64,000 nt of DNA from assembly GCF_011297335.1 (NCBI RefSeq), contig NZ_JAAOTJ010000010.1, positions 124,001-188,000 on the forward strand, given 5' to 3'. This document shows, in pieces, positions 38,793 to 49,311 of the stretch. How positions within the stretch are numbered: the first letter of the stretch is position 1; every line of letters begins with the position of its first letter. A program made the position numbers and the translations under genes. Origin of the DNA: Catellatospora methionotrophica (GTDB taxonomy: Bacteria > Actinomycetota > Actinomycetes > Mycobacteriales > Micromonosporaceae). Under the pieces are notes generated by a model. That model had not been told where the DNA came from and did no database searches. It was given only the letters and a program-made list of their open reading frames with translations.

Positions 38793-41141
<2,349 letters not shown>

Positions 41142-41163
41142 CGTCGACACCTGCCATTCTGAA

Positions 41164-41184
41164 CTTGAGTCTTACCCACTCAAG
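41164..41184. promoter_or_regulatory. HAIR operator (HspR-binding site) of lon
   Basis: CTTGAGT, 7 bp (CTTACCC), ACTCAAG: an exact match to the HspR-associated inverted repeat. HspR with DnaK represses such genes and releases them on heat shock. Confidence 0.93.
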
Positions 41185-41196
41185 TCCAGGACGACC

Positions 41197-41216
41197 TTGG
41201 TTGTTCCCTCAACCAA
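41197..41216. promoter_or_regulatory. Second inverted repeat upstream of lon
   Basis: TTGGTTG, 6 bp, CAACCAA, lying 12 bp further upstream than the HAIR site. It could be an additional operator or part of the promoter region; I do not recognise its binding protein. Confidence 0.4.
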
Positions 41217-41269
41217 AGCGTGTGACCCACGCCACTCCCGCCCCGCGCTCCGCTCGCACCCCGCATCAT

Positions 41270-41344
41270 GATCGTCCGCCTTGCCTGGCAGGTGTGCGTA
41301 TCTCGCGGCGCCATGCGCACAGGTGCCAGGCAAGTCGGACGATC
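41270..41344. repeat. Dispersed palindromic element, copy B
   Basis: 21-bp arms at 41270-41290 and 41324-41344 pair with a single mismatch, and an inner TGTGCG/CGCACA pair extends the stem. The arm TTGCCTGGCA and the flanking GTCCG/CGGAC surround the same core as copy A at 4544-4604; in the matching orientation both read GACTTGCCAGGCACC at one end and ACCTGCC[A/T]GGCAAG at the other. It lies between the divergent lon control region and the end of the membrane protein gene (41389). Confidence 0.78.
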
Positions 41345-41388
41345 GAGGACCGGGCAACGGCCTCAACGGCGGCAACCCGCCGTGCGGG

Positions 41389-42222
41389 TCAGCAATTCCC
41401 GCGCGGGATGTACAGGGGCCGGTCGGTCTCCTCGGCACCGGGCGCGCCGACGAGCGCGGCCTCGACCAGCGTCGCCTCGACCAGCGTGGCCTCGGCGTGG
41501 CTGGGCTCGGGCGTGTCGGCGGGTTCGGCCTGGCTCCCGGACTCGCCGTGGACCTCGGCTGCGGCCTGGCCGGGCTCGGCGTGGCCCTCGGGTGCGGGCT
41601 GGCCGCCGGGCGCGGTGTGGATCTCGACCTCGGTCTGGCTCGCGTTCTCGACGTCGGCGGCCCCGGCAGCGGGCGCGGCTTCGGAGCGCGCCGCGGGCAC
41701 GGACGGCGTCCCCTGGTCGGCCGCGGGCGCGGCTTCGGCGGGTGCGGCCGGGGTGTCGAAGGAGGCGGCGCCCGCGGCCATCATCGCCGCGAACTCGTCC
41801 GTGGCCGACGGCTCGGCCGCGGGCAGCTCGGCGGCGAGCGCGGCGGACGTGCCCGGCTTCGGGGCGAGCAGGCCGATGGCCAGGCCGGTGATCACCGGCA
41901 TCACCGAGTAGGAGGACGCGACGTCGGTGAAGTAGACGTCCAGGCCGATGTTGAACGCGCCGCCCAGGTAGAGGCCCAGATCACCGGCGGTGGTGACGGC
42001 CGCCCAGACCAGGCCGACGAAAACGCCCTCGGGGCCCGCCGCGTCGGGGCGCTTACGCAGGTAACGGACGGCGAAGCCGAGGACCAGCGCGACCATCGTG
42101 GTCAGCTTGATCGACTCGTACAGTGCCTCGTGCTTGCCCTCGGCGGGCAGCAGGATCAGCGAGATGCCGACCATGCCGAGCCACACTCCCAGCCCGTATC
42201 CGAGCACGCGCGACGACCTCAT
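41389..42222 (-). CDS. Hypothetical membrane protein with long disordered tail
   Basis: 277 residues. The start ATG 42222 follows a perfect AGGAGG with good spacing, so the extra 11 residues of the open frame upstream are rejected. About the first 130 residues hold four hydrophobic segments (GVWLGMVGISLILL, LTTMVALVLGFAV, GVFVGLVWAAVTTAGDLGLY, SVMPVITGLAIGLL). The remaining half is rich in Ala, Glu, Pro and Ser with near-repeats such as ATLVEATLVEAALV, so probably unstructured and cytoplasmic, ending in PRGNC. No family is recognised. Related short repeats in the DNA (15-bp units around 41440-41500) mean that the tail length may vary. Confidence 0.72.
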   Translation of the reverse strand: MRSSRVLGYGLGVWLGMVGISLILLPAEGKHEALYESIKLTTMVALVLGFAVRYLRKRPDAAGPEGVFVGLVWAAVTTAGDLGLYLGGAFNIGLDVYFTDVASSYSVMPVITGLAIGLLAPKPGTSAALAAELPAAEPSATDEFAAMMAAGAASFDTPAAPAEAAPAADQGTPSVPAARSEAAPAAGAADVENASQTEVEIHTAPGGQPAPEGHAEPGQAAAEVHGESGSQAEPADTPEPSHAEATLVEATLVEAALVGAPGAEETDRPLYIPRGNC

Positions 42223-42359
42223 GGGCGATTCCTCCTTTTGACGCGGGATTCTCACCTTGCTAACCGTTGTGGGCGGTGTGAGGTCGCTGCCCCGGCCGGG
42301 CTGGTGTGTGTCCCGCTGCGGTTAGCCCAGTGGCCGTGGCCCCTGGGCTGCCCGTCGGG

Positions 42360-43607
42360 CTAGGCGACCAGCGCGGGCGCGAGTTCGGCTGAGCGGCCGG
42401 CGACCGCGCCGCCGATCAGGTCCAAGGCTTGGGCGTACGCCATCGGTGGCAGTCGCCGCCCGTCGCGCAGCCGCAGCGAGACCTCGCCCGCGTCGGCCTC
42501 GCGGGAGCCGATGACCGCCAGATAGGGAACCCGCCGCTGCGAGGCCTCGCGGATGCGCAGCCCCAGTGAGCCGTCGAAGCTTACCGACGCCCGCAGCCCG
42601 GCGCGTTGCGCCTGGTCGGCGAACTGCCGCGCGGCCGCGTCCTGGTCCTCGCCGACCGGGGCGACGGCCAGCTGCACGGGCGCGTACCAGGCCGGGAACG
42701 CCCCCTGGTGCACCTCCAGCAGGTGCGCCATCAGCCGCTCCATGCTGCCGACGATGCTGCGGTGCACCATCACGGGCCGGGCCGGGTTGCCGTCCCGGCC
42801 GGTGAACGACAGGTCGAACCGCTCCGGCTGCGCGAAGTCCACCTGCACGGTGGCCAGGGTCCACTCCCGACCCGCCAGATCCCGTACCTGAATGTCGATC
42901 TTCGGCCCGTAGAACGCGGCCTCGCCCGGCGCCTCCTCGAACGGCACCCCCGCCTGCACCAGGGCGTCGCGCAGCAGCGCCTCGGCCCGCGCCCAGTCCT
43001 CGTCCGCGCCCAGGTAGCCCGCCCCCGGCCCGCGCAGCGACAGCCGGTAGCCGTCGGCCGCGAAGCCCAGCGCCGGATGGATCCGCGCGCACATCTCCAG
43101 CACCAGCGCGACCTCGGCGCCGACCTGGTCGAGCGAGCAGAACACGTGCGCGTCGTTGAGCGAGATCGCCCGCACCCTGCTCAGCCCGCCGACGACGCCG
43201 GAGCGCTCGGCGCGGTACATGCCGCCGATCTCGGCGATGCGCACCGGCAGCTCGCGGTAGGACCGGCCACGGGAGCCGAACACCATCGCGTGGTGCGGGC
43301 ACAGGCTCGGGCGCAGCATCAGCGCCTCGGCGTCGTCGTCCGGGGCGTCAGGATCGTCGGACATCGCCGGGAACATGTCGTCGCCGAACTTGGCCAGGTG
43401 CCCCGACCTCTGGAACATCTGGCGTTTGGCCAGCGGCGGTGAGTAGACGTGCTGGTATCCGGCGAGGCGTTCCTCCTCGCGGACATGCTCCTCGATGGCG
43501 TGGCGGGCGGCGGCCCCGGCGGGCAGCCACAGCGGCAGCCCCGCGCCGATCATCGGCTCGGAGTGGTAGATCTCGAGTTCGCGGCCGAGGCGGCGGTGGT
43601 CCTTCAC
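42360..43607 (-). CDS. thrS: Short threonyl-tRNA synthetase-like protein
   Basis: 415 residues: class II synthetase core plus anticodon-binding domain, without the N-terminal TGS and editing domains of the normal 640-residue enzyme. Zinc/threonine site residues are present (Cys and His in RPSLCPHHAMVF, His in MVHRSIVGSMERL). Motif 2 reads YRAERSGVVGGLSRVR, and the C-terminal part (YLAVIGSREADAGEVSLRLRDG) is the tRNA anticodon domain. GTG 43607 follows AGGGAG; ATG 43643 is possible. Such second ThrRS copies can be stress-induced or inhibitor-resistant forms; lack of editing may allow Ser mischarging unless edited in trans. Upstream is a threonine-rich leader peptide with a hairpin, so it is probably induced on threonine starvation. 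Confidence 0.88.
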   Translation of the reverse strand: MKDHRRLGRELEIYHSEPMIGAGLPLWLPAGAAARHAIEEHVREEERLAGYQHVYSPPLAKRQMFQRSGHLAKFGDDMFPAMSDDPDAPDDDAEALMLRPSLCPHHAMVFGSRGRSYRELPVRIAEIGGMYRAERSGVVGGLSRVRAISLNDAHVFCSLDQVGAEVALVLEMCARIHPALGFAADGYRLSLRGPGAGYLGADEDWARAEALLRDALVQAGVPFEEAPGEAAFYGPKIDIQVRDLAGREWTLATVQVDFAQPERFDLSFTGRDGNPARPVMVHRSIVGSMERLMAHLLEVHQGAFPAWYAPVQLAVAPVGEDQDAAARQFADQAQRAGLRASVSFDGSLGLRIREASQRRVPYLAVIGSREADAGEVSLRLRDGRRLPPMAYAQALDLIGGAVAGRSAELAPALVA

Positions 43608-43662
43608 GGTGTGCTCCCTGGGTGAGAAACGGCCGGGGCACACGTGGGGCGGATACGCGTCA

Positions 43663-43686
43663 GCCCCGGGGCGTGTGCCCCGGGGC
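43663..43686 (-). terminator. Attenuator-like hairpin upstream of thrS-like gene
   Basis: GCCCCGGGG (43663-43671) and CCCCGGGGC (43678-43686), a 9-bp all-GC stem with a 6-nt loop, between the leader peptide stop (43712) and the synthetase start (43607). Its CCCGG segments could also pair with the hairpin at 43725-43744, giving mutually exclusive structures. Confidence 0.6.
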
Positions 43687-43711
43687 CGACGGTCGACTGA
43701 AGTTCAGCAGG

Positions 43712-43771
43712 TCAACGCGTACGAACGCCGGGACGTCCCGGCGTCGTCGTGCTGACCAGACGCTGATGCAT
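43712..43771 (-). CDS. Threonine-rich leader peptide
   Basis: A 19-codon open frame, MHQRLVSTTTPGRPGVRTR, on the same strand as and about 105 bp upstream of the thrS-like gene. Three consecutive ACG threonine codons lie at 43742-43750, and a fourth Thr is at position 18. A 20-nt perfect palindrome (43725-43744) begins at the last of the three Thr codons, so a ribosome stalled there would keep it open. The terminator-like hairpin at 43663-43686 follows. Together this is the layout of transcription attenuation by threonine starvation. No clear Shine-Dalgarno is seen before the ATG, and expression is inferred. Confidence 0.55.
   Translation of the reverse strand: MHQRLVSTTTPGRPGVRTR
43725..43744. 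repeat. Palindrome within the leader peptide gene
   Basis: ACGCCGGGACGTCCCGGCGT, a perfect 20-nt palindrome that in RNA makes an 8-bp stem with loop ACGU. It overlaps the third ACG Thr codon of the leader peptide and could act as pause or antiterminator partner. Confidence 0.65.
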
Positions 43772-43858
43772 GACAGCACGATAGCGCAGCGGCCGCGCCC
43801 CGGGGCAAGCGATATCCGTCACCGAGGTACTTTCGACGTGAGGACCCGGAGGTGAGCC

Positions 43859-44245
43859 GTGGGGCACTGGTACGAGTCGAGCATCGACCGGCAGATCCGC
43901 GAGGCGGCCGAACGCGGCGAGTTCGACGACCTGCCCGGCGCGGGCAAGCCGCTGCCCGGGGCGGGCGAGGTGCTGCCCGACGACTGGTGGCTGCGCGACC
44001 TGGTCCAGCGCGAGAACCTGTCCGCCGCGATCCCGGCCACCCTGCTGCTGCGCCGCGACCTCGAGGACCTGCCCGAGGCCGTCGCGAAGAAGACCTCCGA
44101 GCAGGCGGTACGCGCGTACGTCGCGGAACTGAACGTGCGCGTGGTCCGCGCCCACCGGGGCGAACTGGCCGGTCCCGCCATCGCCCTGGCCCTGGTCGAC
44201 GCCGACGACGCCGTGCGCCAGTGGCGCGCCCGCCGCGCCCGCTGA
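43859..44245 (+). CDS. DUF1992 (DnaJ-homologue subfamily C member 28-like) protein
   Basis: 128 residues. The N-terminus WYESSIDRQIREAAERGEFDDLPGAGKPL is the hallmark of the DUF1992 family, also described as a conserved domain of DNAJC28-like proteins. There is no J-domain. The remainder is helical and charged (residues 45-128). GTG 43859 has GGAGGTGA at good distance. Function unknown. It is divergent from the leader of the thrS-like gene and convergent with the TAP-like gene. Confidence 0.9.
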   Translation: MGHWYESSIDRQIREAAERGEFDDLPGAGKPLPGAGEVLPDDWWLRDLVQRENLSAAIPATLLLRRDLEDLPEAVAKKTSEQAVRAYVAELNVRVVRAHRGELAGPAIALALVDADDAVRQWRARRAR

Positions 44246-44250
44246 ACGAA

Positions 44251-44269
44251 GAAGGGCACCTTCCCATCG
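44251..44269. repeat. Half copy of the GGAAGGGCACCTTC family
   Basis: GAAGGGCACCTTCCCATCG is identical over 19 bases to 12007-12025. It lies between convergent genes (stops at 44245 and 44291) but has no inverted partner here. Confidence 0.65.
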
Positions 44270-44290
44270 GCCTTGCGGTGACTGCCCAGG

Positions 44291-45829
44291 TCAGCCGAAG
44301 GGCTGCTGGTCGGGCTGGCAGACCGTGCCTTTCGGCGGCGTGACCAGGTCGACGAGGTAGCGTTCGCGGGCCTGGTCGACGCACGCGCTGGGGACCTGGT
44401 AGCTCGGGTGGCCGTAGCCGTTCAGGGTGAGCAGTACGGCGTTGCCGAGCAGCTTCTCGGTGGCCTGGGCGTTGTGGTACGGCGTGCCGGGGTCGTGCCG
44501 GGCGCTGATCAGCAGCACCGGCGTCTTCGTCGGGGCGTTCCACGGCCCGGCGTAGCGGTCCGTGTCGTCGGCGGGCCAGTTCGCCGCGCACGGCGCCCAC
44601 AGCCACCAGCCCAGTACGGCGCCCCACAGCTTGCCCGCCGCGGTGAACCGGGCGATCTCCTGCGGCCACTGGGACACCGGTGTGCGGGCGCTCCCGTCGA
44701 CGCAGCTGATCGCGGCTGACGTGGTCGCCGCGGCGAAGCCCGCCGGGCTCTGCATCTGCCGGGCCGAGGTGAGCAGCGCCGACGCGTCGCCCGCCGCGGC
44801 GGCGTCGAGGTCCTCGGCGAACTGCGGCCAGGTCAGCGGCAGGCGCAGCGGGTTGAACGTGGACATCTGCAGGTCGCCGTAGCTGAGCGTGCCGGGCGGG
44901 TCGGCGTGCGGGGCCGGGATCGGCGCGCGGCGGGCCATGGCGAACAGCGCCTCGACCCGCTGCGTGACGGGTTCGCCGTGCCCGGCCAGCGCGCAGCGGC
45001 CCGGCGCGGCCTCCTGGCACAGCTTCATGAACTGCGCGAAGACCTCGTCGGCCGAGGAGACGTTGTCGGCGGTGCGCGTCTCGGCGCTGGTGGTGTACTC
45101 GACCGCGTCGACGATGCCGTCGAGCATCATCGCCCGGGTCCGGCCGGGGAACAGGTTGAGGTACGTCTGGCCGATCATCGAGCCGTAGGACAGCCCGACG
45201 TAGGTGAGCTGCTCGTCGCCGACGAGGGCGCGCAGCGCGTCCAGGTCGCGGGCCGTGTCGGCGGTGGAGATGTGCGACAGCAGCTTGCCGCTGACCTCGC
45301 CGCACCGGCGGGCCAGGTCGACGGCTCTGGCCTCGTACGCCTTCGACTGCTCGGTGGTCGACGGGATCGATACGCCCTGCCAGAACGTGGTCTGCTCAGC
45401 CTCGCTGGGGAAGCATCTGACGGGCGAGCTGCCCTCGGTGCCGCGCGGGTCCCAGCCGATGACGTCGAAGCGCCCGCCGCCCCACGCGTCGAAGTCGTCC
45501 CCGCCGCCGCGCACCAGCTCGACGCCGCTCTGGCCGGGTCCGCCAGGGTTCATGAACATCGACCCGATGCGCTCCTGCGGGCGGCTGGCCAGGTGGCGGA
45601 TGACCGCGAGCTCGATCCGCGGCCCGTCCGGTTCGGACCAGTCCAGCGGCACCGGCACCTTGGCGCACTGGAACCGCTCGGCCAGGCCCTCGCAGCCGGT
45701 CCACACGATACCGGGCGGCTCACGCCGCGCGGCCGTCATCGCGTCGGGCGTCGCGGCACATCCGGCGGCCAGGCAGGCCGCGACGGCGACCGCGACGGCC
45801 CGTAGCCCGGCGCGGACGCGCCCGATCAT
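44291..45829 (-). CDS. TAP-like alpha/beta-hydrolase peptidase lipoprotein
   Basis: 512 residues from ATG 45829, which follows GAGGGGTG; the in-frame GTG at 45844 is too far upstream of the signal peptide. The N-terminus ends in a lipobox LAAGC, so it should be attached outside the cell. The domain matches the tripeptidyl aminopeptidase/S33-like group: oxyanion GGPGQSG, nucleophile Ser in GLSYGSMIG, Asp in ARHDPGTP and His in GYGHPSY, with a C-terminal TAP-like part containing several Cys. Likely an extracellular aminopeptidase acting on short peptides. Confidence 0.9.
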   Translation of the reverse strand: MIGRVRAGLRAVAVAVAACLAAGCAATPDAMTAARREPPGIVWTGCEGLAERFQCAKVPVPLDWSEPDGPRIELAVIRHLASRPQERIGSMFMNPGGPGQSGVELVRGGGDDFDAWGGGRFDVIGWDPRGTEGSSPVRCFPSEAEQTTFWQGVSIPSTTEQSKAYEARAVDLARRCGEVSGKLLSHISTADTARDLDALRALVGDEQLTYVGLSYGSMIGQTYLNLFPGRTRAMMLDGIVDAVEYTTSAETRTADNVSSADEVFAQFMKLCQEAAPGRCALAGHGEPVTQRVEALFAMARRAPIPAPHADPPGTLSYGDLQMSTFNPLRLPLTWPQFAEDLDAAAAGDASALLTSARQMQSPAGFAAATTSAAISCVDGSARTPVSQWPQEIARFTAAGKLWGAVLGWWLWAPCAANWPADDTDRYAGPWNAPTKTPVLLISARHDPGTPYHNAQATEKLLGNAVLLTLNGYGHPSYQVPSACVDQARERYLVDLVTPPKGTVCQPDQQPFG

Positions 45830-45896
45830 GTCACCCCTCGCCACGACGATCCCCCGTTCGTCACCGCTTCCGCCGCCGACCGAACGGCCCCTGCCG

Positions 45897-47171
45897 TCAG
45901 GCGTCGCGCAGCAGTGGGCAGGTCATGCAGTGGCCGCCGCCGCGTCCTTTGCCGATCTCGAAGCCGTCGATCTCGACGACCTCGATGCCCGCCTCGCGGT
46001 ACCGGCGGTTGCTGTAGACGTTCTTCGAGTACGCCACGACCACGCCCGGCGACAGCGCGACCACGTTGTTGGCGCAGTCCCACTGCTCGCGCTCCTGCTG
46101 GGCCTCGTCGCCGCCGGTGGTGACGACCCGCAGGTCCTTCTCGTGGGCCAGCCCGATGGCGTGCGCGACGGCGCCCAGGAAGCTGTCCTCGGCGGTGACG
46201 GCGAGCGTGCCCTCCTTGTCGCCGGGGCGGATGCTGTACGCCGTGGTGCCGTCGATGACCTTCGGGTAGACGGTGACGGTGTCGCGGTCCATGAACGTGA
46301 ACACCACATCCAGGTGCATGAACTGGCGTTTGCGCTCCAGCTGCACCGCGATGATGCGCTCGGCCGCGCCCTTGGCGAACAGCCGCCGTGCCAGGATCTC
46401 CACCATCTGCGGAGTGGTGCGCTCGCTGATGCCGATCAGGACGGTGCGGTTGCCGACCGGCATCACGTCGCCGCCCTCGATCGACGAGCGCCCGAAGGAC
46501 TGTATGTCGAACTCGTCGTGCTCGTCGCTGCCCGCGTCCGGGAACCAGAAGTTGATCTTCTCCTGCCGGAACATCGGGTGGAAGCGGTACACCGTGCCCA
46601 GGTTGACGGTCTCCAGCTGGCGCGAGGGCCAGTACATGGGGTTCAGCGAGACGCCCTCGTAGATCCAGCACGAGGTGTCGCGGGTGAACAGGTGGTTGGG
46701 CAGCGGCGGCAGGATGAACGACGAGCCGACCGTGGTCGCCACGGCCAGCGAGCGCGCCGCGAGCCGGTCGTCGTCGGCGAACTGCATCAGCTCGGCCCGG
46801 GTCACCCCGCCGGTCAGATGTGTCGCGAGGGTCTTGGGGTCCATGCTGCCCAGCGCCTCGCGCACCGCGTCGACCATGGCCGGGCCCACCGTGTACGGGC
46901 TGACGGTGTGCCCGATGACCCATTCGCGCGCCTCGGGCGAGGCCAGGGCCTCGGTGAGCAGGTCGTGCAGGAGGAACACCTCGACGTCGCGGGCGCGCAG
47001 CTCGGCGACGAACTGGTCGTGCTCCTGCTGCGCGCGCTCGACCCACAGCACGTCGTCGAACAGCAGCTCGCCGCGGTTGGACGGGGTGAGGCGGCGCAGC
47101 GCCAGGTCGGGGCGGTGCACCAGCACCTTGCGCAGCGTGCCGACCTCCGAGTGGACTCCGAATCCGGTCAT
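45897..47171 (-). CDS. arcA: Arginine deiminase
   Basis: 424 residues, full length. Catalytic Cys415 is in GGGHCMTCPLLRDA at the C-terminus; His and Asp are in QFMHLDVVFT, and the guanidinium-binding Glu region is SSIEGGDVMPVG. The N-terminal VHSEVGTLRKVLVHRPDLAL is the usual start. It converts arginine to citrulline and ammonia, giving ATP when coupled to ornithine carbamoyltransferase and carbamate kinase, or acid resistance. Neither partner gene is in the window, so arcA stands alone here. Confidence 0.97.
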   Translation of the reverse strand: MTGFGVHSEVGTLRKVLVHRPDLALRRLTPSNRGELLFDDVLWVERAQQEHDQFVAELRARDVEVFLLHDLLTEALASPEAREWVIGHTVSPYTVGPAMVDAVREALGSMDPKTLATHLTGGVTRAELMQFADDDRLAARSLAVATTVGSSFILPPLPNHLFTRDTSCWIYEGVSLNPMYWPSRQLETVNLGTVYRFHPMFRQEKINFWFPDAGSDEHDEFDIQSFGRSSIEGGDVMPVGNRTVLIGISERTTPQMVEILARRLFAKGAAERIIAVQLERKRQFMHLDVVFTFMDRDTVTVYPKVIDGTTAYSIRPGDKEGTLAVTAEDSFLGAVAHAIGLAHEKDLRVVTTGGDEAQQEREQWDCANNVVALSPGVVVAYSKNVYSNRRYREAGIEVVEIDGFEIGKGRGGGHCMTCPLLRDA

Positions 47172-47292
47172 CGCGCACTCCTTCGCCGCAGCCCTCCCGC
47201 CCCCGCCGCTGCCCCGAATGCTACGTCCGTTTCATGTCCTTCGCGCCGGATCGCCTGTTCCCGCAGCGGGGGCAGCCCTCACCCGAAGCGAA

Positions 47293-47338
47293 GGAAGGGC
47301 ACCTTCACAACGCTCCGCGTTGTGGAAGGTGCCCTTCC
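47293..47338. terminator. Terminator hairpin of the GGAAGGGC family
   Basis: The 21-nt arm at 47293-47313 and the 22-nt arm at 47317-47338 pair with a single bulged base; loop TCC. It lies after the GH25 gene (minus strand, stop at 47353) and before arcA. Core GGAAGGGCACCTTC is shared with 12004 and 44251. Confidence 0.8.
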
Positions 47339-47352
47339 CATCAGCCGGTGGG

Positions 47353-49311
47353 CTACGGCCGAGGCGCGGTGCGGGCAGCCGGGTGGTGCGCGCTCGGGTT
47401 CGGGCTCGCGCCTGCGCGGCTCGCCGACGGAGCCGGGCCCGCCGACCGGGCCGGGCTCGGCGCGGTGGGCGGAGCGTGACTCGGACCGGACGAGCCGGCC
47501 GGGCCGTGACTCGGGCCGGCCACGGCGGCCGGGGTGCGACTCGGCGACGGGCTCGCCGCCGGGGTCCGGCTCGGCGAGACCGACGGCCGGGCGGCCACCG
47601 GCGCGTCCGACGGCGACGGCGGCGTGCTCGGCGACGTGCTGGGCCGCGGTGAGGCGGCGGGAGCCGGGTTCGCGGCGGGTGCCGGAGCCGCCGCCGCGCC
47701 GGTGCCGCCGTACGTGAAGGTGATCTCCACGGCGCTGCCGCCGGTCAGGCTGTTGGTCAGCTGCCAGACCAGGCCCGCGTCACCGGAGGCGTCGATCGCG
47801 CCCGGCGTGAAGACCCTGTCGCCGTTCCAGTCGCCGACCAGCGGCACCGTGAACACCGCGCCGAAGCCCACGTGGACCTGCGTCGCCCCGCCGGTGGTGA
47901 CGTTGCTCAGGTAGTAGTCGTGCCGGTCGCCGTCCATGTCGACCGTGCCGGGCGTGAAGGTGCGGTTGCCGTCCCAGTCGCCGACGATCGGCGTCTTGCC
48001 CGCGTCGCCGTACGTGAACGCGATCTCGGTCACCGGCTTGGCGAACGTGTTCGTGAGCTGCCACGAGTGCAGCTTGCCGTCGCGGCCGACCGCCCCCGGG
48101 GTGAACGTGCCGTTGCCGTCCCAGTCGCCGACCACCGGGATGTCCTCGACGCCGCCGAAACCGGTGTGGATGTCGGCCGGACCACTGCGGAAACTGTTGA
48201 CCAGGTAGAAGTCGCGCCGCTTGCCCTCGGCGTCGACCGTGCCCGGCGTGTAGGTGCCGTTGCCGTCCCAGTCGCCCACCAGCGGGGCCTTCTCCGCGTC
48301 GCCGTAGGTGAAGTCCAGCGCCGGGTCGGGCGTGCCGTCCAGGGTGTTCGACAGCCGCCAGCGCCACGTGTCACCCTCGGCGCTGACCAGGCCGGGCGTC
48401 ATCGTGCCGTTGCCGTCCCAGTCGCCGACGACCGGCCGGGGCAGCGGACCGCCGGGGTTGGCGGCGAGGGCGGCCAGGTCGGCCAGGTTGCCGTTGAAGA
48501 CGTTCTGGTCGCCGGGCAGCTTGCCGTGGTTGGCGTACTGCCACAGCGTCCAGCGGTCCCACCCGGCGGGCAGCCCGCGCACCTTGTCGGTGTAACTGGA
48601 CACGAACAGGTAGTGGTCGCCGAAGTCGGCGTTGCGCCCGGTGCACGGGTTCCACCAGTTCGGGTTCGTGTAGATCATCGTGGCGCTGCCGGTGCGCTCG
48701 CGTACCCGCTCGGTGAAGTCGCGGATGAAGCGGACCAGCTCGTTCTTGGACTTGCCCCAGCACGGGCCGGGCGCGACGAGCTTGCCGCCCAGCTTGTACG
48801 GCCACTCGATGTCGAGCATCGGCGGCAGGCTGCGCCCGTCGTTGCGGTACTGCGCCCGGTCCAGGAAGTAGTCGGCCTGGGTGCGGCCGTTGGTCTTGTC
48901 GGGCCGCGCGAAGTGGTACGCCCCGAACAGGATGCCGTTACCCCGCGCCCCGCTGTAGTTGTCCTTGAACGAGGCGTCGACGTAGTGCACGCCCTCGGTC
49001 GCCTTGGCGTAGACGAACTTCGCGCCCTTGTCGGCGACCTTGTCCCAGTCGATGTTGCCCTGGTGGTGCGACACGTCGATGCCGGTGACCGGGTAGCCGC
49101 CCGGTGCGCCCGCCAGCGCCCGCGCCGCGGCTGGCGGGGCCAGGTCGGCCGGGGTGCCCGCGCCTGCCCAGCCGTCGGTGATCGGCTTGCCGTCGGGGCC
49201 GAGCGGGTCGGTCGGCGGCGCGGCCCCGGCAGGCAGTGCGGCCAGGGACAGGAGCAGCCCGGCCGCGGCGAGGACGACACGGCGGGCTGCGGCGGTGCGG
49301 TTAAGGTTCAC
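47353..49311 (-). CDS. Secreted GH25 muramidase with DWDGNG repeats
   Basis: 652 residues from GTG 49311, supported by GAGGAG a few bases upstream. A signal peptide ends near AGA-AP (30). The GH25 domain (about 74-285) has D79 in TGIDVSHHQGNIDW and the D167/E169 pair in MLDIEWP. Then come five repeats of about 46 residues, each with the core VGDWDGNGTxTPG and a following WxLSNT or FYLVNS strand, like FG-GAP/beta-propeller blades with a possible Ca-binding DxDxN. A Pro/Ser/Ala tail of about 150 residues ends the protein. It should cut the glycan strands of peptidoglycan. The gene follows the NlpC/P60-like gene by 8 bp, so the two are one operon. Confidence 0.9.
   Translation of the reverse strand: MNLNRTAAARRVVLAAAGLLLSLAALPAGAAPPTDPLGPDGKPITDGWAGAGTPADLAPPAAARALAGAPGGYPVTGIDVSHHQGNIDWDKVADKGAKFVYAKATEGVHYVDASFKDNYSGARGNGILFGAYHFARPDKTNGRTQADYFLDRAQYRNDGRSLPPMLDIEWPYKLGGKLVAPGPCWGKSKNELVRFIRDFTERVRERTGSATMIYTNPNWWNPCTGRNADFGDHYLFVSSYTDKVRGLPAGWDRWTLWQYANHGKLPGDQNVFNGNLADLAALAANPGGPLPRPVVGDWDGNGTMTPGLVSAEGDTWRWRLSNTLDGTPDPALDFTYGDAEKAPLVGDWDGNGTYTPGTVDAEGKRRDFYLVNSFRSGPADIHTGFGGVEDIPVVGDWDGNGTFTPGAVGRDGKLHSWQLTNTFAKPVTEIAFTYGDAGKTPIVGDWDGNRTFTPGTVDMDGDRHDYYLSNVTTGGATQVHVGFGAVFTVPLVGDWNGDRVFTPGAIDASGDAGLVWQLTNSLTGGSAVEITFTYGGTGAAAAPAPAANPAPAASPRPSTSPSTPPSPSDAPVAARPSVSPSRTPAASPSPSRTPAAVAGPSHGPAGSSGPSHAPPTAPSPARSAGPAPSASRAGASPNPSAHHPAARTAPRP

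Follow-up and report, generated by a model that had tools for sequence, protein, structure and literature searches.

A threonine-codon leader and covarying alternative helices upstream of a threonine-poor, editing-less threonyl-tRNA synthetase gene in Actinomycetes

The window analysed here, a 64,000-nucleotide stretch of the Catellatospora methionotrophica contig NZ_JAAOTJ010000010.1, contains a gene (thrS) for a short threonyl-tRNA synthetase (ThrRS), preceded by a small reading frame with a run of threonine codons. The locus raises the questions of what this reading frame senses, through which RNA pairings it might act on the downstream gene, and when a cell with a full-length ThrRS would make a second, shorter one. 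The first-pass annotation, made from the sequence alone, had proposed a classical ribosome-mediated attenuator responding to threonine starvation; here we follow up that proposal by comparative sequence analysis and RNA folding. The features of the locus are collected in Table 1.

Table 1. Elements of the leader and short thrS gene, with positions in the window
Feature	Position	Strand	Details
-10 box (TANNNT)	43778..43783	minus	TATCGT; 6 nt before the leader ATG
Leader reading frame	43712..43771	minus	19 codons, ATG 43771 to TGA 43712; MHQRLVSTTTPGRPGVRTR
Leader hairpin 1:2	43704..43766	minus	Predicted fold; strand 2 lies around and after the stop codon
Regulatory run	43742..43750	minus	ACG ACG ACG (Thr-Thr-Thr)
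Inner hairpin	43725..43744	minus	8 bp, ACGCCGGG-ACGT-CCCGGCGT; begins at the last ACG
GC hairpin 3:4	43658..43691	minus	10 all-GC pairs, loop ACAC
Strand 3b	43672..43683	minus	CCGGGGCACACG; top of the 5′ arm plus loop; complementary to strand 5
Strand 5	43633..43644	minus	CGTGTGCCCCGG; partner is 3b or Shine-Dalgarno strand 6
Strand 6	43609..43618	minus	GGGAGCACAC; contains the thrS Shine-Dalgarno sequence GGGAG
Short thrS	42360..43607	minus	415 aa; GTG start 43607, set by homology and Shine-Dalgarno sequence

The short synthetase, its leader and their distribution

Pfam assigns the tRNA-synt_2b and HGTP_anticodon domains to the short ThrRS and nothing else; the protein scores 428 bits against the thrS model TIGR00418 (cut-off 383.65), with a match that begins no earlier than residue 166 or 171 of the 565 in the model. 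The earlier description of a ThrRS without TGS and editing domains is borne out by these matches. The short ThrRS aligns along its core with solved ThrRS and, as judged by eye, carries the zinc ligands and motifs. A second, full-length ThrRS of 674 residues is encoded elsewhere in the same genome. An upstream thrS start at 43643, which falls inside strand 5 of the RNA scheme described below, is unlikely.

The leader has the 19 codons and the three consecutive ACG codons that had been attributed to it. When the upstream regions of orthologous short thrS genes were compared, as the first-pass annotation had suggested, the leader frame and its Thr run were found in every one of 91 regions from Micromonosporaceae and public contigs (78 distinct after removal of duplicates). 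Seventy of these regions come from the 223 of 300 family genomes that match the short ThrRS at E ≤1e-100, the weakest of which may not be short, and loci below 50% identity were dropped; the nearest relatives among the genome contigs are Catellatospora (85–92% identical). Each of the 91 regions retains the frame and the Thr run while the peptide elsewhere is variable, so the leader is not a chance reading frame. Among 117 distinct leaders from Actinomycetes the Thr motif is TTTP in 114, NTTP in two and PTTP in one, the last three keeping two Thr codons; the 351 codon places of the run are occupied by ACG (324), ACC (23), ACT (1) or a codon for another residue (3), so that departures from ACG are synonymous in 24 cases versus three non-synonymous. 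The residues flanking the run vary freely among the leaders and the rest of the peptide is not kept, with start codons being ATG in 111 and GTG in six. Almost purely synonymous variation is what one would expect of codons that are sensed, and at the level of sequence this conservation gives strong support to a leader of Thr codons in front of an editing-less ThrRS.

A similar picture was obtained from a sample of 345 genomes of the class, in which 52 of the 54 short thrS genes (those at ≥54% identity) carry the leader, the remaining two being at contig ends. The covariance model of the leader, R1, rests on an RNAalifold structure of just nine pairs; it is therefore mostly a sequence model, and its E-values are rough. 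At E ≤0.001 it gave 72 matches in these genomes, of which 52 lie directly before a short thrS and 20 elsewhere, 18 of the latter having E-values of 2.5e-5 or worse. Of the two strong matches with no adjoining short thrS, one (genome G531) is at a contig end. The other (G538:C55, locus L203) is a TTTP leader, MARVFWSTTTPGISRRLSLAR, at bases 290–355, which precedes a full-length thrS beginning at 441; this is the sole thrS of G538 over the family cut-off, with no short gene over it. To judge from this genome, the leader is evidently able to work with either synthetase. In the genome of the window itself the model gives one strong place, which is this locus, a member of the training set. The best 10 of 697 matching records in a plasmid search are from Streptomycetaceae and Nonomuraea, and the leader is present in five of the five plasmid-search records examined. 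A comparable leader is absent from all eight outgroup thrS loci, seven of which are full-length by open frame (588–695 residues) and one 391 residues long; a chance TT reading frame occurs in one of them (L057).

A TANNNT box begins at −13 relative to the leader start in 72 of the 117 leaders, at −12 in 44 and at −14 in one. The choice of start was box-aware, the box being preferred in 78 leaders and required in 39, with none rejected for lack of one. This placement predicts a leaderless leader mRNA, in agreement with RNA-seq data for the thrL leader of Streptomyces lividans, which is leaderless (PMC8079986). A sigma-70 consensus scan gave no hit for the window's promoter; outside the Micromonosporaceae the promoter consensus is TGCTANCGT, an extended −10. 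An A-rich patch some 42–44 nt before the leader start (43803–43817 in the window) is common in the set, with A in 65–74%, and may represent an operator or some upstream element. Further upstream, a gene with a DnaJC28 domain (43859–44245, plus strand) is divergent from the leader.

Alternative helices between the leader and the Shine-Dalgarno sequence

We divide the RNA into six strands: strand 1 precedes the Thr run and strand 2 follows it, strands 3 and 4 are the arms of the GC hairpin, strand 5 comes next, and strand 6 is that of the Shine-Dalgarno sequence. The leader stretch folds at −115.6 kcal/mol, against −87.6 kcal/mol for dinucleotide shuffles (z −6.4). The 8-bp hairpin that begins at the last ACG is as originally described, and its core, CCGG…CCGGC, is conserved. 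The second predicted hairpin, before the start codon, is present and all-GC as claimed, but with 10 such pairs rather than nine; it reaches 15 pairs when outer ones and a G-U are counted. For the comparative work, four of the 117 leaders had no hairpin call (leaving 113) and 11 had no clear thrS start; the Shine-Dalgarno pairing and folding sets comprise 101 sequences and the covariation permutations 93, whilst alignment A1 retains 53 leaders after removal of eight with an unclear terminator and of near-identical ones.

Strand 5 has two candidate partners. Its complementarity to strand 3b scores 21.1 on average, where shuffles reach 16.1 and swapped partners 17.4. Of the 113 homologues, 96 score higher than their shuffles (L100, which has no shuffle, being counted as not above) and 89 higher than the swaps; the paired motifs exchange between species, as in CAAGTG/CACTTG, CACACG/CGTGTG, CACCCG/CGGGTG and GAACG/CGTTC. 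Pairing of strand 5 with the Shine-Dalgarno strand beats shuffles in 84 of 101 sequences and swaps in 84 of 101. When partners were permuted over all 93 sequences, z was −13.8 for 3b:5, −9.7 for 5:6 and −7.0 for 1:2 (−5.5 and −2.4 for 1:2 within the two groups), with controls, not all of them null, at 0.1 for 1:5 (−1.9 within Micromonosporaceae) and −2.5 for 3b with 6 over all; these z-values, like those of the map that follows, account for relatedness only at the level of the two groups, and row L143, a Micromonosporaceae genome, falls in the 'other' group. A map of 78 segment pairs, with permutation confined to each group, has 3a–4a (z −19.0) and 3b–4b (−12.8) on top, partly by construction, since pairing was used to locate the hairpin. 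They are followed by 3b–5 (−10.0), strand 1 with the spacer after the stop codon (−6.3) and 5–6 (−5.7); below these five lie a neighbour pair, mid–6 (−4.1), and pairs with no proposed role, from −3.3 to +4.9. Because the role-less pairs span that range, 5:6 is the weaker signal and 3b:5 the stronger. An antiterminator 2:3 was sought by covariation in the 93 sequences and in the segment-pair map and was not found (2:3b z +1.8); its coding role may leave the core of this helix no room to vary.

Helix 3b:5 excludes both the top of 3:4 and 5:6, and all three covary. Two close Catellatospora relatives, L009 and L034, differ in this respect: in the former strand 5 is a perfect match to the hairpin loop, in the latter it is a better match to the Shine-Dalgarno strand, as though 3b:5 and 5:6 competed over short evolutionary times. 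Helix 3b:5 could also serve another end, such as a pseudoknot.

The first-pass annotation had proposed folding the RNA for mutually exclusive pairings. In our models a stall was represented by a ribosome placed on the middle Thr codon, and 3:4 was disfavoured via an energy penalty. Before strand 4 exists, stalling raises the expected pairs of strand 2 and the spacer with strand 3 from about 4.3 to 10–11 (101 sequences). At equilibrium, 3:4 and 5:6 stay closed even with the stalled ribosome, and the Shine-Dalgarno sequence is mostly paired in all equilibrium states (probability of being open about 0.3; 101 sequences), so an open state would be at best kinetic. With 3:4 penalised and the ribosome stalled, the probability of an open Shine-Dalgarno sequence rises by over 0.1 in just 23 of 101 sequences, and in seven the site closes; outside the Micromonosporaceae, 5:6 mostly persists under the penalty. 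In the window, penalising 3:4 takes 5:6 from 8.5 pairs to 0 and 3b:5 from 0 to 10.9, and GGGAG pairs elsewhere and stays closed (probability open 0.20 before and 0.19 after). The exchange of 5:6 for 3b:5 was thus recovered in the window, but opening of the Shine-Dalgarno sequence was not reproduced. Folding support for the order of events proposed below is mixed, and the role of 3b:5 in it is putative.

A threonine-poor product, the proposed switch and other readings

A point absent from the first-pass annotation concerns the composition of the enzyme. The window's short ThrRS contains three Thr in 415 residues, compared with 22 in the matching 415-residue core of the full-length ThrRS of the same genome. 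The median is five (range 1–28) in 85 short orthologues, 17 (13–24) in 11 full-length actinobacterial cores and 14 (12–20) in 22 other ThrRS cores; the difference between short and full-length enzymes has a Mann-Whitney p of 1e-7, with sequences treated without regard to relatedness. The short set derives from 120 sequences at ≥50% identity, of which four were dropped for stops and the remainder reduced to the 85 distinct ones; the full-length set derives from 17 loci, six of which, holding 16–24 Thr, were dropped as their alignment ran through a stop. The highest count in the short set belongs to L164 (= L197, genome G494), with the same leader and 28 Thr, the next-highest having 17. Lys, Asn and Phe are also lower in the short ThrRS, in keeping with the higher GC of the short genes (73% vs 68%); Thr codons, however, are GC-neutral, and Ser is unreduced (ratio 1.0). 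Gln is lower as well (ratio 0.62).

The remaining Thr codons are also biased. Short thrS genes use ACC 526, ACT 11, ACG four and ACA one time (n = 542), and full-length thrS genes ACC 162 and ACG 41 times (n = 203; Fisher p for ACG vs ACC 3e-20). Thr is the only one of eight codon families to drop in G-ending share (0.008 in short vs 0.202 in full-length genes); for Ala, Pro, Val, Leu and Ser the two sets have similar shares, and for Gly and Arg the short thrS genes have the higher one. Within the window, where 35 coding-like reading frames were taken from a crude caller, the short thrS (with its longer start) has the lowest Thr content, 0.9%, with the next at 2.7% and a median of 6.0%; ACG makes up 32% of ACG plus ACC in the other 34. 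These counts establish, for the coding sequences, an enzyme depleted of both Thr and ACG, as would fit one made during threonine starvation. That leaders draw their regulatory codons from those that starvation affects most is a theory supported by tests in E. coli (PMC1183508); the needs of RNA pairing may be another reason for the leader's ACG codons.

We consider it probable that a ribosome-mediated leader-peptide switch senses charged tRNA-Thr, most sharply the ACG-reading species, and raises the level of an accessory, editing-less, Thr-poor ThrRS, with threonine limitation as the likely inducing condition; the short ThrRS would then resemble an emergency enzyme of soil actinobacteria. When threonine is present, the ribosome would reach the stop codon, 1:2, 3:4 and 5:6 would form, and thrS would be off. 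When threonine is short, the ribosome would stall on the ACG codons and free strand 2, which would capture strand 3 before strand 4 is made and so delay 3:4; strand 5 would then pair with 3b instead of the Shine-Dalgarno sequence, and thrS would be on. That control is exerted mainly at translation initiation is to our minds evenly balanced; otherwise, termination at 3:4 would be the sole or an added step. A fuller version is a starvation-proof circuit comprising an ACG leader, an ACG-poor and Thr-poor product, a six-strand Shine-Dalgarno switch (5:6 closed, 3b:5 open) and no terminator. The short thrS mRNA would then stay translatable when others stall, because it calls for almost no Thr and almost never for ACG, and the ACG-reading tRNA would be expected to lose its charge first; as a whole, this version is tentative and somewhat short of an even chance.

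The first-pass annotation had called the attenuator 'classical'. Its Thr leader, now seen to be conserved, stands; against the label, a U-tract is mostly absent and the conserved pairings downstream include the thrS Shine-Dalgarno sequence. Purely transcriptional attenuation, with 3:4 as terminator, 2:3 as antiterminator and the later helices incidental, is a possibility on the doubtful side of even. The layout (1:2, 2:3 and 3:4, with the stop codon at the end of strand 2) is the same as that of trp leaders, 2:3 forms ahead of strand 4 on a ribosome stall, 3:4 is the best supported helix, and the window's Shine-Dalgarno sequence stays closed when 3:4 is penalised. After the GC hairpin, however, the window has no U-tract and no terminator-like site was found there; the same lack holds for most homologues, four of 113 having at least five T within 9 nt downstream of the stem. 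A laxer count, of at least five T in 8 nt with the last four stem bases included, gives 19 of 113, a point in favour of a terminator, and eight of the 113 have a run of four. Actinobacterial terminators often have no U-tract, so 3:4 may yet act as one. Against purely transcriptional control, 3b:5 and 5:6 covary although they are transcribed past the termination point, and the S. lividans authors likewise call termination unclear in their account of thrL (PMC8079986). A mostly U-less GC hairpin followed by the covarying, mutually exclusive helices 5:6 and 3b:5 makes translational control a serious alternative to transcription attenuation, one for which the folding models would still have the site closed.

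Two further readings concern the signal rather than the step controlled. The leader might mainly sense ThrRS inhibitors, such as borrelidin and obafluorin, with the short ThrRS as a resistance isozyme, which we regard as unlikely. The residue before the Pro of the motif xxQxDFxxP, presumably a borrelidin contact, is Gln in 56 of 76 distinct short ThrRS (HQ 37, AQ 17, VQ 1, NQ 1; the others have DK, 19, or HL, 1), including that of the window (TVQVDFAQP), and Leu in the solved ThrRS 1nyq, but the full-length ThrRS of the same genome likewise has Gln there. There is precedent in a duplicated TrpRS1 that is resistant to indolmycin (PMC9437257); the sensing step, through uncharged tRNA-Thr, would be identical, however. 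The Thr depletion points to low Thr-tRNA, yet does not separate starvation from inhibition, because an inhibitor also lowers Thr-tRNA. It is highly improbable that the helices serve protein-mediated autoregulation with the Thr run secondary. E. coli ThrRS does act on its own mRNA (PMC2965389), and the 3:4 and 5:6 helices are conserved; nonetheless, the Thr codons change almost solely synonymously, and no anticodon-like loop shared at 3:4 was seen by eye among the homologues listed.

The threonine-sensing leader-peptide switch that we favour offers a concrete RNA switch that can now be tested, and a prediction of which tRNA-Thr isoacceptor is most sensitive to starvation in these bacteria. It also hints at when they rely on a ThrRS without a proofreading domain of its own.

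Relation to known systems

The closest known system is thrL-thrS of S. lividans TK24 (SLIV_19412/19410), reported in 2021 with the Thr-codon leader MKRVRPFLETTPGFVPAR (PMC8079986). As described there, thrL shares with the window's locus a short Thr leader before thrS, a leaderless mRNA and a hairpin without a U-run (PMC8079986), and the window leader fits this type, as a TTP leader before thrS that is predicted to be leaderless. The thrL peptide also resembles class-sample leaders that precede short thrS genes, for example MKRAQPFLTTTPDSVPAR, and SLIV_19410 is probably the short paralogue, to judge from its leader. It differs in having two Thr codons versus three here; the thrL passages of that report concern one strain, give no comparative evidence, and mention no Shine-Dalgarno helix, short synthetase or low Thr content (PMC8079986). 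Because thrL is homologous, the Thr sensor is not new, and the proposal of Thr as a new leader specificity in actinobacteria is superseded by it (PMC8079986). The S. lividans metL leader, MSTTSDRTPATEATTTPGARCMCRRMCAF, also contains TTTPG (PMC8079986). With the present set, what was a one-strain annotation becomes a regulator whose conservation extends across Micromonosporaceae, Streptomycetaceae, Streptosporangiaceae (Nonomuraea) and a Dermatophilaceae MAG.

Ribosome-mediated attenuation of trpS1, the Streptomyces gene for an auxiliary, antibiotic-resistant TrpRS, has reportedly been described by Vecchione and Sello; as here, an accessory synthetase is placed under a leader peptide, but the amino acid is Trp and the inhibitor indolmycin. 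In T-box RNAs the tRNA is bound directly by the RNA. No T-box or other Rfam family was found in 40000–48000 of the window, where two weak matches are chance-like. The translational T-box of actinobacterial ileS, as outlined in a 2005 survey, resembles the proposed switch in its sequestor and anti-sequestor over a synthetase Shine-Dalgarno sequence (PMC1262725), and has no leader peptide, unlike the window's leader. In the sections concerned, the same survey gives no conserved RNA structure for threonine (PMC1262725). Its Streptomyces trpS and leuS attenuators have a cognate-codon leader before a synthetase gene, as here, but sense other amino acids and are termed classical attenuators (PMC1262725). 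The Anabaena ThrRS T2 is likewise a second ThrRS with impaired editing that is made under stress, although, according to the portion describing it, it is under zinc/Zur control and retains a degenerate editing domain (PMC4787780).

For the composition of the product, the nearest likeness is the low cognate bias of biosynthetic enzymes, whereby an enzyme that relieves a shortage is itself poor in that amino acid; as set out there, that bias concerns biosynthesis and not a synthetase (PMC4209129), and here it extends to synonymous codons. Among the matches listed from open-access PMC text (subscription papers lying outside), there was no other report of the leader or the short ThrRS, and none of low cognate amino acid content in a synthetase. 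The short ThrRS offers a clear natural example of a synthetase whose composition and choice of synonymous codons seem to have been selected against the very shortage that it has to relieve. Compared with these systems, the known part is the leader, described in one strain and extended here, and what is new is the possible translational switch together with the Thr-poor product.
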